Assembly: GCA_002162755.1 (NCBI GenBank)
Contig: MAAS01000026.1
Location: 51,669-115,668, forward strand
DNA: 64,000 nt
From: Gammaproteobacteria bacterium 50_400_T64
GTDB taxonomy: Bacteria; Pseudomonadota; Gammaproteobacteria; Pseudomonadales; Porticoccaceae
Direction of reading: 5' to 3'
Of the stretch, positions 44,968 through 50,982 are shown piece by piece. The translations under genes were made by a program, and so were the position numbers. Below the pieces are notes generated by a model. It searched no databases, was not told where the DNA came from, and saw only the letters and a program-made list of their open reading frames with translations. The stretch's first letter is position 1, and each line of letters opens with the position of its first letter.

Positions 44968-44998
44968 AGCGGGTTCAGTGATACTGAGTCCGCTTTTT
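44968..44998 (+). terminator. Probable intrinsic terminator after SDR gene
   Basis: AGCGGGTTCAGT-GAT-ACTGAGTCCGCT followed by TTTT (two G:U wobbles). Confidence 0.55.
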
Positions 44999-47086
44999 AA
45001 TGGACGGCAATTTCTTAAGCGCGGGGTGAACTGCCTCAATTTCGTCGGCGGCTAAACCGGGGCCAGAGGGCGATAGCTGACCGTATTGTGTCAATTGCAC
45101 GGGTGACAGCGGGCCAACAATACTGCCAAGTTCGGATAGCTTGATGCCCGATCGGACGAGGAAGTAGATATAGCTTTGCTGCAGGCAAGTACTGTTGATA
45201 CTTGATGGCTCACTCAGCCCCGCATCAATAGCGGCACAGCTGAGCATGGCATTAAAAAACGTATCGTCAGTTTCTTCATCGGCAGACAGCCATTGGGGTG
45301 CGCCCTGGGTTTTTGCCAGCAATTCTTGTAACGCTGGGGGTATGGCTAGCGCCCTGGGATTAAATGTGTTGAGTTGTATTTGCTGTGGGGTTTGTTGATG
45401 AGAGGTTTGCTCGGGAAGCGTAAAACTCTCGGGCTTCAATGCTCCCAGTTCATCGGGTCTAATGCCCGATAACAGCAGAGCGATGAGTTGTTGTGTTGGC
45501 AGATCTGCTGCAGCGAGTAGCGCTTTGATTTCCCTTTCCTCAAGTTCTCTGACGCTAGTGTCGACAGAGGGCTTGCCTAAAAGTGTGCTCGCACTTTGTT
45601 CCAGGGAGAGGCCCTCATTCCTGGCTTCATCTAATAATTGTGCCTGAGGTATTTGTTTTTCTGGGTTTGCAGCCAGGCGTGAGTCAAGGATGGTGACATA
45701 GTTGGGTGCTGGTGCCTGGTTTTGATTGTCGTCATGAGTACGGCGCAGGAATTCATACAGCCAGACGGCCAGTAAACCCAGTAGCAGCGAGCAGACCGCA
45801 ATAATTCCGGCATCGCGCCAATAGAGGGGGTAAACCGCTGTGTCTGATGCGTAAGCCGGTTCGATAATTTGAATTTGCGGGTATTTTTGCTGCTGCTCAA
45901 TATGCAGATCAGTGATGCGTTGCAGGATGACACGCTTGTGCTCTTCGAGTTGAATCAGCTCTTCTTTCATCGCCTCGTGTGCCGAGAAGCTATTGCTAAA
46001 AGTGAGGGCGGTTTGTTTGTAATCGTCAAGTTGACGTTGCAGTGCAATTTCGGCAATTTTTGCCGCTTGATAGTTACGTGATGCCGTTGCTAGCACGAGG
46101 GATTGACCGGCGGCTTCTTTCTCGGCAAGTGTTTTTTCTATAGCGGCCAATTGCTCGGGAATGGCTTTCATTTCCGGATGCAGGGCCATGTAGTCACGTG
46201 TGTATTTATTATCCAGTTCGGTGAGCTTGTCCTGTAATCGTCTTTGGCGCAGCTGTAAATCAGAGAAGGCGCGTTCATCACTGGGTGCTATCAGCGTTTT
46301 TCCCTGAGCGGCTGCAGCCTGTATGGCGTCAAGTTCGGCTTTCGTGGTGACGCGTTTTTCAAGTGCGGTGTTAAGAGCGTCTGTCAGCCCCTTGAGTTTG
46401 GCGTAAACCTCATTTTCATCTCTGCCTAAAGAGAGGATGTTGTTATTGGCGCGGAACTTTTCGAGTTCTTCGCGCTTGCTGACAACTTCATTTTCTATGC
46501 GGGTTTGCTGCTCTAATAGAGCGCTAGTAGTCTCGGCAACATTTTTTTCAATAGCGTCACGACGCGATTGGGCATAGGTGGCTATGAGGGTGTTGAGCAG
46601 AATTGGGAGTATTTCAGCGTTGTAGCCTTTGGCGCTAATCTCAAGCAAATTGCTTGCGTCGAGTGGCGCAACGCTCAGCATTTTTTGGAATTCGGCACTA
46701 TCGTTTGGTAGTGATCCTGTTGCATATTCTTCGGCACGAAGTTGTGCCAATGTGGTATCTAAGGTCTCTCGGGCGCGCAACAGGTTCTTTTGTATGAGGC
46801 CGTGCTGCAAGCTTGGGTCTGCTATTTCGGCGCCAACCTGGTTGGGCGTAACGGTGAGTAAAACCGCTGAACTCGCATAAATTGCCGGTCGGCTAAAATC
46901 GTAAATTAGGCCCAGGCTGGCACACAATAGGGTGGTGATAAAGAAAATGCGGAAGCGTTGAGATTGATGCCAGGGGATTCTTTTTTTAAAGGGACGAGGG
47001 TAATCAATGTTACCAAACCCTGGGCCTGGCGTGTTGCCGGGATAAGTCCCGGCCGGTTCCGCAAGAGGTAGCTTGTTGCTAGTCAT
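44975..47086 (-). CDS. Wzz/GumC-type chain-length determinant fused to a degenerate tyrosine-recombinase-like C-terminal domain
   Basis: TM1 RIFFITTLLCASLGLIYDF, periplasmic coiled-coil, TM2 GIIAVCSLLLGLLAVWLYEFLRR, then REIKALLAAADLPTQQLIALLLSGIRPDELGALKPESF ... CLQQSYIYFLVRSGIKLSELGSIVGPLSPVQLTQYGQLSP. Confidence 0.75.
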   Translation of the reverse strand: MTSNKLPLAEPAGTYPGNTPGPGFGNIDYPRPFKKRIPWHQSQRFRIFFITTLLCASLGLIYDFSRPAIYASSAVLLTVTPNQVGAEIADPSLQHGLIQKNLLRARETLDTTLAQLRAEEYATGSLPNDSAEFQKMLSVAPLDASNLLEISAKGYNAEILPILLNTLIATYAQSRRDAIEKNVAETTSALLEQQTRIENEVVSKREELEKFRANNNILSLGRDENEVYAKLKGLTDALNTALEKRVTTKAELDAIQAAAAQGKTLIAPSDERAFSDLQLRQRRLQDKLTELDNKYTRDYMALHPEMKAIPEQLAAIEKTLAEKEAAGQSLVLATASRNYQAAKIAEIALQRQLDDYKQTALTFSNSFSAHEAMKEELIQLEEHKRVILQRITDLHIEQQQKYPQIQIIEPAYASDTAVYPLYWRDAGIIAVCSLLLGLLAVWLYEFLRRTHDDNQNQAPAPNYVTILDSRLAANPEKQIPQAQLLDEARNEGLSLEQSASTLLGKPSVDTSVRELEEREIKALLAAADLPTQQLIALLLSGIRPDELGALKPESFTLPEQTSHQQTPQQIQLNTFNPRALAIPPALQELLAKTQGAPQWLSADEETDDTFFNAMLSCAAIDAGLSEPSSINSTCLQQSYIYFLVRSGIKLSELGSIVGPLSPVQLTQYGQLSPSGPGLAADEIEAVHPALKKLPSIKKRTQYH
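45010..45560 (-). other. Integrase-like domain within the Wzz-like protein
   Basis: Arg of GIRPDEL at 45460-45462; degenerate HxxR box STCLQQS near 45195; Tyr of LTQYGQL near 45083; Arg-to-Tyr spacing about 126 aa. Confidence 0.6.
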
Positions 47087-47135: not shown

Positions 47136-48659
47136 TTATTCCAGCAAAATACGCAATTGCGTTTTTAGAATTTTACCGTAATTGTTTTTTGGCAGCTGGG
47201 CCACAAAGTGATAGTGCTTGGGGCGTTTAAAGCGGGCCATATTGTCGATACAAAACGCGTCGAGTTGTGCTTTGTCGAGAGTAGCCGTTTCCCGTTGCAC
47301 GACAAAGGCGACGACTACCTCTCCCCAGTCGGGGTCGGCTTTGCCAATCACCGATACTTCAATAATGTCTGGGTGTTCAAGCAGGATTTCTTCGACTTCC
47401 CGAGGATAAATGTTGGTGCCGCCGCTGATGATTAAATCCTTCGAGCGGTCTTTCAAGGTTAAATAACCCTGAGCATTGAGCATGCCCATATCGCCGGTAA
47501 AGAGCCAGCCATCGACAATGGTCTTTGCCGTTGCTTCGGGGTTTTGCCAATAACCACGCATCACGGTATCGCCGTTAACGAGTATCTCGCCGACTTCGCC
47601 GTCGGGGAGTTTGTTGCCATCCTCGTCGGCAATGCGGATTTCAACCGGCACCTGAGCGCAGCCGACAGAGGCGAGGAGTTCGTCCAGTGGCAGGTCGTCC
47701 CGGCCGAGGTGGTCGGCACGATTGAGGCAGCTGATGGTCATTGGGGTTTCGCCCTGGCCGTAGATTTGTGCAAATTTATTGCCAAAGCGCTCCATCGCGA
47801 CTTTGATGTCGGCGACATACATCGGCCCACCGCCGTAAATCATTACCTTTAAGTTGTCGGTGTTTTCATCTTTTGCCGGGGGTGTTTCGACCATGCGCTT
47901 AATCATGGTCGGCGCGGCAAACATCGACACTTGTGGATAGTGCTTGATGAGCTGGAGGATTTCTTCTGGCTCAAAGCTGCCACTCTGGGAAACAACCTGG
48001 TGGGCACCGGCGGCAATATTAGGAAAGGCGTAAAGACCGGAGCCGTGGGACATGGGTGCGGCGTGAAGCAGGGTAGCACCGGGTTCGATGGTGTCGACAC
48101 TGGCGAAGTAGCTTTGCGTCATCGCCATTAAATTGCGATGGCTGAGCATCGCACCCTTGGGCTGGCCTGTGGTGCCGCTGGTGTAAAACAGCCAGGCAAT
48201 GGCGTCGGGCTCGCATTGTTGCAGGGCTAAAGGGGGCGATTCATAGACTTGTTGAAATGCTGTGGAATTAACGCTGATGAATGATTTTAGCGTGTCGACG
48301 GTGTTGTTTAATTCACCAATCGTATCGTTGAAATCATCGGTAATAAAAGCGTGGGTTGCGCCACTGTTTTCCAGAATATAGGCGAATTCCCGGCGGTGCA
48401 GTTTGGCGTTGACCGGTACAGCGGTGAGCCCCGCATGCAAAACACCAAACAACACTTCTATGTACTGGGGTGAGTTTTTCATCACCAGTGCGATGCGCTC
48501 GCCGGGCTGGCATTGCAGCTCGTTTTTCAAATAGCTGGCAATGGCTGCAGTACGTTGTGCCAATGTGGCGTAGTCGCAGTGGGGCTCAAGCCCGCTGGAC
48601 AGCGCCCTGTGTTGAGGGAAGCGGCAGGCAGATTTTTCAAGTAGGGCGGCAATATTCAT
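47136..48659 (-). CDS. AMP-binding acyl-CoA synthetase (class I adenylate-forming)
   Basis: FYTSGTTGQPKGAMLSHRNL, YGQGETPMT, FTGDMGMLNAQGYLTLKDRSKDLIISGGTNIYPREVEEIL, NNYGKILKTQLR. Confidence 0.93.
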   Translation of the reverse strand: MNIAALLEKSACRFPQHRALSSGLEPHCDYATLAQRTAAIASYLKNELQCQPGERIALVMKNSPQYIEVLFGVLHAGLTAVPVNAKLHRREFAYILENSGATHAFITDDFNDTIGELNNTVDTLKSFISVNSTAFQQVYESPPLALQQCEPDAIAWLFYTSGTTGQPKGAMLSHRNLMAMTQSYFASVDTIEPGATLLHAAPMSHGSGLYAFPNIAAGAHQVVSQSGSFEPEEILQLIKHYPQVSMFAAPTMIKRMVETPPAKDENTDNLKVMIYGGGPMYVADIKVAMERFGNKFAQIYGQGETPMTISCLNRADHLGRDDLPLDELLASVGCAQVPVEIRIADEDGNKLPDGEVGEILVNGDTVMRGYWQNPEATAKTIVDGWLFTGDMGMLNAQGYLTLKDRSKDLIISGGTNIYPREVEEILLEHPDIIEVSVIGKADPDWGEVVVAFVVQRETATLDKAQLDAFCIDNMARFKRPKHYHFVAQLPKNNYGKILKTQLRILLE

Positions 48660-48869: not shown

Positions 48870-50261
48870 ATGTTGCACCAGAAAGATTCTGTTAGAGAGC
48901 AGCTCGACGATGATATTTATGCATCGAGAGACGCCGCCTTAAGACTGCCAAAATATAAAATGCCCGAGCAGGAACACAACGCCCAGGTGATCCATGCTTT
49001 GATTACCGATGAATTGATGCTGGATGGTAACTCTCGCCAAAATTTGGCGACTTTTTGCCAAACATGGCTGGAGCCCGAAGTGCTTGATTTGATGGAGCAC
49101 TCCGTCGACAAGAACCTGGTTGATAAAGATGAATACCCGCAAACAGCCGAAATTGAAAGTCGCTGTGTGCATATCCTTGCCGATTTGTGGAACTCCCCTG
49201 ACTCTGCCAATGCCACCGGAACTTCGACCACCGGTTCGAGTGAAGCGGCAATGTTGGGCGGCATGGCTTTGTTGTGGCGCTGGCGAGATGCCCGGAAGGC
49301 GCAGGGAAAGCCCCATGAAAAACCCAATTTGGTCACCGGGCCAGTGCAAGTTTGCTGGCATAAGTTTTGTCGCTACTGGGACGTCGAGTTGCGTGAAATT
49401 CCCATGGCAAGTGACCGCTATATTATGAACGGTGAGGAAGTTGTTTCTCGTTGTGATGAAAATACTATCGGTGTCATCCCAACGCTGGGTGTGACGTTTA
49501 CAGGGCAATTTGAACCGGTTGAAGAAGTCAGTGCGGCGCTGGATCAACTGGAAAAACAAACCGGCCTCAATATTTCTATGCATATCGATGCCGCGAGCGG
49601 TGGCTTTCTGGCACCCTTCCTAGAACCGGAGCTGGTGTGGGACTTTCGTCTGCCACGGGTTAAATCTATCAATACTTCGGGTCATAAGTTTGGTCTCGCA
49701 CCCCTCGGGGTCGGTTGGGTGATTTGGCATAATAAAGAAGACCTGCCCGATGACCTGGTCTTTAAGGTTAATTACCTGGGGGGTGACATGGTTGATTTTG
49801 CCCTTAATTTTTCCAAGCCCGGCAGTCCGGTGGTCGCCCAATATTATAATTTTCTACGTTTGGGCAAAGAGGGTTATCGCAATATTCATTCGGTGTGCCG
49901 AGAGTTGGCGGTATATCTTTCAAAAGCTATTGCAGAGCTAGGGCCTTTTGAGATTATTTATGATGGCAGCGATGGTATCCCGGCGCTGAGCTGGAAGTTA
50001 AAACCTGGTATGAATCACACTTTTAGTTTGTTTGATTTTGCCGATCGTCTGCGCGCGCGTGGCTGGCAAGTGCCGGCTTATGCCTTGCCCGCCGACATTG
50101 AAGATCAGGTGATTCAGCGAGTTTTAGTGCGCCATGGTTTTAGCCGAGATTTGGCGGATTTGTTGTTAGAGGACTGTCAGAGAGCACTCGATCATCTGGC
50201 GAAGCACCCCGCTACCAATCCCATGACAGAAGATGAAGGGGGAGGTTTTAAGCATGGCTGA
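48870..50261 (+). CDS. Glutamate decarboxylase
   Basis: [30 protein letters not shown]-lysine region [20 protein letters not shown]. Confidence 0.93.
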
Positions 50262-50982
50262 GCCTCGTGCACCGCTGTTGTTGCGGGTGTGGAGGCTTGA
50301 TTCCCGGTTTTTGAATGGCTGGATAGCCAGTTTATTTATGGTAGGTGCAGCCCTCTTTGCCTTGGGCTGCGCACTCTATTTGTTGGGTAGTGACGATGCC
50401 TTTGTTCTGGATAGTATTTTTTTTGTTGGCTCAATATTCTTTACGGCAGCGGCTTTTAGTCAACTGCATCAGGTGCTTGGTGGTGAGGCGGGAAGTACGA
50501 AAACCCGACGGGAGATAATACGTCGAGCCTGTAACAGACAGTCCATCGATGTGCCGTTGATGTCTGCATTTTCCCAGTTTGTCGGCACCTTAATGTTCAA
50601 TATCAATACCTTTGATGCCTTCTTCGAGCTGCAGTGGTTTGCCGAGGGATTACTGGTCTGGACGCCAAATATTATGGGCTCCCTGTTATTTCAGCTGTCG
50701 GGGAGTTTGGCTTTGTATGAAATCACCGGCCGCTGGTGGAGCTGGCCTACAATCCGGCGCCGTCAGGGGATACATTGGTGGATAGGCTACATCAATTTTG
50801 TCGGCTGTGTGGCCTTTCTGGTGTCGGCATTACTCGCTTTTTTTGTTGCCGCTTGGGCCGCTAGTGGGTCCGTTATATTCACTCTGTTAGGCGCTTGCTG
50901 CTTTTTCGTCGCTGCTTTATTAATGTGGCCTGAGATGTATAGCCGTAAAGGCGCTAAGCCATCATGTGGTCGCAATGTTTGA
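50254..50982 (+). CDS. YrhK-like multi-TM membrane protein
   Basis: [45 protein letters not shown]...[23 protein letters not shown]. Confidence 0.65.

Follow-up and report, generated by a model that had tools for sequence, protein, structure and literature searches.

Polysaccharide co-polymerases (PCPs) set the lengths of surface and biofilm polysaccharides, and Wzc shows that the cytoplasmic domain of a PCP can switch it. The protein described here is encoded in a 64,000-nucleotide stretch of DNA from Gammaproteobacteria bacterium 50_400_T64 (the window, below) and shares with Wzc (PDB 7nhr and 9r64; PMC8285477, PMC11986026) the two transmembrane (TM) helices, the periplasmic coiled-coil PCP region and a C-terminal cytoplasmic domain, and Wzc is the best Foldseek match of its full-length model. 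In contrast to Wzc, its cytoplasmic domain has a recombinase fold that is predicted to be dead, without a P-loop kinase and without a Tyr-rich tail. Another close relative is the chain-length determinant TIGR03007 (and EpsF, TIGR03017) of the XrtA system. TIGR03007 is the top NCBIfam family for the PCP half and occurs in the same genomes, but the fusion scores 35 versus 279 bits (35.1 bits, E 4e-9, for the window protein against a curated cutoff of 278.85 bits), falls in a separate cluster, lies outside the XrtA locus and has an extra domain. The tail shares its fold and sequence profile with the catalytic domain of XerA, XerD and phage integrases (PF00589), and the box I, box II and Tyr regions align, but unlike these enzymes, the tail lacks Arg-I (in most members), the Lys, the His and the core-binding domain, is acidic rather than basic, and is attached to the membrane. 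A tyrosine-recombinase fold that has lost recombination is also found in MrpR (YopR) of the Bacillus phage SPbeta, which keeps the Tyr and the Lys and acts as a repressor (PMC10516654). MrpR is, however, a soluble two-domain DNA-binding protein, while the tail has no core-binding domain, is acidic and is membrane anchored. No model for the whole fusion was found in Pfam or NCBIfam, and our literature search found no paper on, or name for, a PCP-recombinase fusion. The PCP is of a known kind, and its combination with a recombinase domain is new to the resources searched.

The reading-frame check at the predicted position in the window showed one intact open reading frame (ORF) without internal stops, and its parts, together with the gene upstream, are as follows.

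44975 to 47086, minus strand: whole ORF of 703 aa, PCP plus degenerate tyrosine-recombinase catalytic domain (ORF check and homologue searches).
46892 to 46960, minus strand: TM helix 1, aa 43-65 (AlphaFold full-length model; Wzz match at aa 44-96).
45824 to 46891, minus strand: periplasmic PCP region with a long coiled coil, aa 66-421 (AlphaFold; Foldseek matches to Wzc, WzzE and KpsE; TIGR03007 match at 132-444).
45725 to 45823, minus strand: TM helix 2, aa 422-454 (AlphaFold full-length model).
45548 to 45724, minus strand: disordered cytoplasmic linker without a core-binding domain, aa 455-513 (pLDDT <50 at 452-510).
44978 to 45547, minus strand: tail resembling a degenerate tyrosine-recombinase catalytic domain, aa 514-703 (profile, AlphaFold and Foldseek).
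45446 to 45469, minus strand: box I, SGIRPDEL, aa 540-547, with Arg543 at the Arg-I position (residue alignment of tails).
45353 to 45355, minus strand: Arg578, the R of K-G-x-x-x-R in the beta2-beta3 hairpin (profile against the PDB; tail alignment).
45179 to 45190, minus strand: box II HxxR position, here T-C-L-Q, aa 633-636 (residue alignment of tails).
45083 to 45085, minus strand: Tyr668 at the nucleophile position (residue alignment of tails).
47136 to 48659, minus strand: acyl-CoA/AMP ligase gene, 49 bp upstream of the fusion ORF (window ORF list and congener comparison).

The window protein is an inner-membrane PCP of the PCP-2/GumC type. The original prediction, made from the sequence of the window, had described the first ~455 aa as a TM/coiled coil/TM arrangement with the Wzz/GumC layout, and the AlphaFold model agrees, with two TM helices around the periplasmic coiled-coil region and with Wzc, WzzE and KpsE as the closest structures in Foldseek. 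The sequence also matches PCP families. As a single sequence, the window protein matched the Pfam Wzz model at an E value of 2.7e-4, which is under the family cutoff, and TIGR03007 matched all 31 members tested, with a best E value of 2.3e-18. There was no BY-kinase domain among the Pfam and NCBIfam matches of the window protein. We rejected the canonical XrtA chain-length determinant TIGR03007 as an identity for the protein on account of the score under the cutoff and the separate clustering in the tree of the PCP region.

The remainder of the protein is predicted to carry the tyrosine-recombinase catalytic-domain fold, and the original description of a PCP joined to a degenerate domain of this kind was borne out by profile searches, AlphaFold and Foldseek. 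The window tail by itself gave zero matches in a Pfam search. Phage_integrase (PF00589) was found in 28 of the 35 homologous tails taken singly (best E value, 1.4e-10), and the NCBIfam XerA model was found in 21/31 full-length members. When a profile built from the 35 tails was compared with the PDB, XerA came out on top (E value, 1.6e-12), and a staphylococcal integrase, IntI4, an XerC-like protein, XerD and the P2 and HP1 integrases were also matched. Structure prediction of the tail had been suggested at the outset as a check, and the resulting AlphaFold model (mean pLDDT, 92.4; pTM, 0.89) had only tyrosine recombinases as its top PDB structures in Foldseek, namely, XerA, P2 Int, XerH, HP1 Int, XerD, lambda Int and Cre. 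Chance resemblance is ruled out by the profile E value together with the fold match. The homology spans aa 514-690 of the window protein, and the globular domain starts at 517 in the full-length model. A phage-type gene was also considered as an identity for the tail and rejected, as one Nitrosovibrio tail resembles phage sequences only at ~26% identity, with an E value of ~1e-4.

Judged by residue conservation, the tail is CATALYTICALLY dead in all members, and the catalytic set R-K-H-R-H/W-Y of tyrosine recombinases is incomplete throughout. Tabulating the R/HxxR/Y residues across relatives, as the original prediction had proposed, placed Arg-I in only 4/35 tails, all from the window's own genus (Arg543 in the window), the box II His in 0/35, Arg-II in 29/35, with Gln in its place in the window protein, and the nucleophile Tyr in 33/35 (Y668 in the window). 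Neither the catalytic beta-hairpin Lys nor the third-box His/Trp is conserved across the 35 tails. Arg578 is invariant (35/35), and this residue and the Tyr rank among the most conserved of the tail despite the lost chemistry. In the window protein, the alignment puts R543 at the box I Arg, T633-C-L-Q636 at HxxR and Y668 at the nucleophile, at most 1 residue from the positions first estimated for box I Arg, box II and the Tyr (~542, 632 and 668). The comparison adds what could not be seen in the window alone, namely, that Arg-I is confined to the window's genus while most of the tails keep Arg-II.

The fusion is spread widely yet sporadically in the Beta- and Gammaproteobacteria. A search for relatives, also proposed at the outset, showed that three congeners (~65% identity) and members of other genera have the same fusion in one piece, and among 85,488 species genomes scanned, 40 loci were found, 38 of them full-length ORFs. 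The roughly 35 carrier species belong to the Porticoccaceae, other Pseudomonadales, Neptunomonas, Nitrosomonas (including N. europaea and N. eutropha), Nitrosovibrio, Thauera, the Methylococcaceae, Alteromonas (including A. alba), Aliiglaciecola, Paraglaciecola and Colwellia. In an even sample of the phylum, 3/399 genomes had the fusion, all of them within the window's class, and zero plasmid-borne copies were found. The original prediction had named an assembly or frameshift artefact absent from relatives as what would count against it. We reject an artefact joining two genes as having practically no probability, since the fusion is a single ORF in named isolates from several families (Neptunomonas, Nitrosomonas europaea and N. 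eutropha, Alteromonas alba and Colwellia) and also in genomes assembled from metagenomes. One congener, G006 (isolate NORP45), has a copy (L018:7991-9300) that lacks ~aa 267-563 and is in pieces, with an N-terminal part that is 87 to 89% identical; the ambiguous bases scattered in this copy suggest that the assembly is mixed or was poorly resolved.

In the tree of the PCP region, which is a quick tree with several open forks and in which L113 (a wrong-frame row with a long branch) was disregarded, the fused proteins group in a single cluster, separate from the canonical XrtA chain-length proteins and the BY-kinases. Six PCPs without a tail (L059-L064) nest within this cluster, and for this reason, the tail was probably gained once and later lost once. 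Most of these six proteins end soon after a 'YVTLSGVHxYP'-like stretch that resembles the 'NYVTxLDPR' behind TM helix 2 of the fused proteins. The dN/dS of the tail was 0.02 to 0.27 in unsaturated pairs, setting aside a Colwellia pair in which the changes were too few to count, and was usually slightly above that of the PCP part; the linker was the fastest-evolving stretch in many of the compared pairs. By this measure, the tail is under purifying selection.

The genes around the fusion differ from genus to genus. The order of AMP-ligase gene and then fusion gene is common to three congeners and absent elsewhere, and the two genes are probably cotranscribed. The neighbours in the window are acyl-CoA, SDR, MMPL, decarboxylase and phospholipase-D genes, while the fusion lies next to PEP carboxylase in Nitrosomonas, to DTW and hydrolase genes in Alteromonas and to unrelated genes elsewhere, and no neighbour conserved across genera was found around the fusion genes. 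Some individual loci have other features. A 249-aa hydrophobic, membrane-like ORF in the window (50233-50982), without a match in a Pfam search, overlaps where the PLP-decarboxylase gene ends and where the PLD gene starts. Just upstream of one fusion gene (L032:2705-6184) is a 1160-aa protein with VanZ-like and heparinase II/III-like regions, which, in that species, could be a polysaccharide-active partner. An HD-GYP-type protein (HD_5, DUF3391) is encoded two genes downstream of the fusion in L041, L044 and L045, and a large hybrid histidine kinase of the 7TMR-DISM type is encoded close by; a link to c-di-GMP in the Alteromonadaceae is possible.

The gene had been called an orphan, which is correct for the locus itself, where the neighbours are unrelated, but not for the genome, which, in a search of one protein family after another, proved to have a complete XrtA exopolysaccharide locus on a different contig (L110; G000:C25:76000-95500) with a chain-length protein, a tyrosine kinase (TIGR03018), FemAB, the exosortase, three glycosyltransferases and an amidotransferase. 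The XrtA exosortase was above the cutoff in 25/32 fusion genomes (one of which, G006, has the broken copy), compared to 35/399 genomes of the phylum (9%) and 48/397 of the order. Fisher's test, which ignores shared ancestry, gave a P value of 1e-18 against the phylum background, and within the order, with the same disregard of ancestry, P values of 1.5e-8 for all orphan-PCP matches and 0.002 for the fused proteins alone. In the 7/32 genomes with XrtA under the cutoff, 3 were without any exosortase match. The canonical XrtA chain-length determinant was also present in 14/15 genomes tested, a set that includes G005, a congener without the fusion, and all six genomes with a tailless PCP were XrtA positive. 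Most fusion genes are far from the XrtA locus. Partial exceptions are the tailless relative L064, which has EpsB_2, a glycosyltransferase of the XrtA system, and a TPR protein resembling PrsT as neighbours, and the Colwellia fusion, which is ~17 kb from the chain-length gene of its genome and lies next to a gene that weakly matches the XrtA-associated O-ligase family. The PEP-CTERM sigma-54/PrsR promoter was not found in 33 upstream regions, apart from one high match that stood alone. The paper in which phylogenetic profiling first revealed the XrtA/PEP-CTERM system mentions chain-length proteins but not an integrase domain (PMC1569441). The fusion protein seems to belong to this exopolysaccharide system, most likely as a second, dispersed PCP in bacteria that bear XrtA.

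The original prediction left the tail as either a DNA-binding or a protein-interaction module, and our data favor the latter. Over the compared span, the tail domains were acidic in 35/35 cases (pI 4.3 to 5.6; median, 4.7). The pIs of 24 true integrase domains, taken from these and related genomes, were 6.6 to 10.0 (median, 9.3), without overlap (P value, 1e-10), in a comparison of amino-acid composition over the domain span and not of calculated surfaces. Whole tails are acidic in nearly all members; L046, a member with a long C-terminal extension, is basic over its whole tail. The core-binding domain of tyrosine recombinases was not found, as the full-length model has a disordered linker ahead of the catalytic domain, and the low pI does not fit their basic DNA-binding surface. 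Because of the acidic tail, the missing core-binding domain and the loss of the Arg, Lys and His that contact the scissile phosphate, it is unlikely that the tail binds DNA. This bears on the idea of a membrane-tethered regulator in which the dead integrase domain couples the envelope state to transcription or chromosome position. MrpR is a precedent for a dead tyrosine recombinase as a DNA-binding repressor (PMC10516654), and Arg-II and R578 are kept in most tails. However, with a median charge of about -9, a disordered linker where the DNA clamp would have its second half, an unconserved catalytic Lys and a box I Arg that is gone in most members, we find such a regulator distinctly improbable.

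Slightly less improbable is that the tail is a phospho-acceptor, with Y668 as a substrate of the XrtA-associated BY-kinase TIGR03018 in mimicry of the Tyr-rich tail of Wzc. The presence of TIGR03018 in the XrtA locus of the window's genome and the retention of the Tyr in 33/35 tails though Arg-I, Lys and His are lost both fit this idea, but Y668 is within helix 662-669 of a well-folded domain in the model, unlike the flexible Tyr cluster of Wzc, and the temperature sensitivity of MrpR Tyr mutants fits a structural role of the residue (PMC10516654). The least probable of these three explanations is a nonfunctional passenger, fused by chance and drifting. The loss of the tail in one lineage, the internally deleted and broken copy in one congener and the somewhat faster evolution of the tail than of the PCP part in most pairs could be seen in this light, but the fold and the invariant residues are conserved across Beta- and Gammaproteobacteria, dN/dS is well under 1 in most pairs, and the full-length members are free of frameshifts.

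We instead favor, at somewhat better than even chances, that a dead recombinase domain, captured once, is a protein-protein module in the place of the BY-kinase that tunes exopolysaccharide chain length or assembly. An ancestor of this PCP subfamily would have captured the tyrosine-recombinase catalytic domain a single time, and the tail would no longer touch DNA but hang by a flexible linker of ~60 residues beneath the PCP ring. There, it may mediate subunit-subunit contact within the oligomer or dock a cytoplasmic partner, either a glycosyltransferase or the XrtA-associated tyrosine kinase, replacing the BY-kinase domain of Wzc and tuning the length of the chains or the assembly of an exopolysaccharide with biosynthetic genes that would be located elsewhere in the genome. 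The tail would not be indispensable, since six related PCPs do without it. More tentatively, at a little under even chances, the integrase fold could be a membrane-anchored control domain, not acting on DNA, that couples the dispersed PCP to the XrtA machinery, perhaps via the noncatalytic Tyr.

In this family, a DNA recombinase domain appears to have retained its fold while losing catalysis and, very probably, DNA binding. As a conserved PCP subfamily whose cytoplasmic domain is unrelated to the kinase, the family can be compared with the latter as an independent solution. The XrtA/PEP-CTERM system, the accessory parts of which are incompletely known, gains a dispersed candidate component, and the presence of the family in the cultured ammonia oxidizer Nitrosomonas europaea and in Alteromonas makes it experimentally tractable. 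If the proposed role is true, the tail would be a further class of cytoplasmic control domain for PCPs, beside the BY-kinase and the bare tail.
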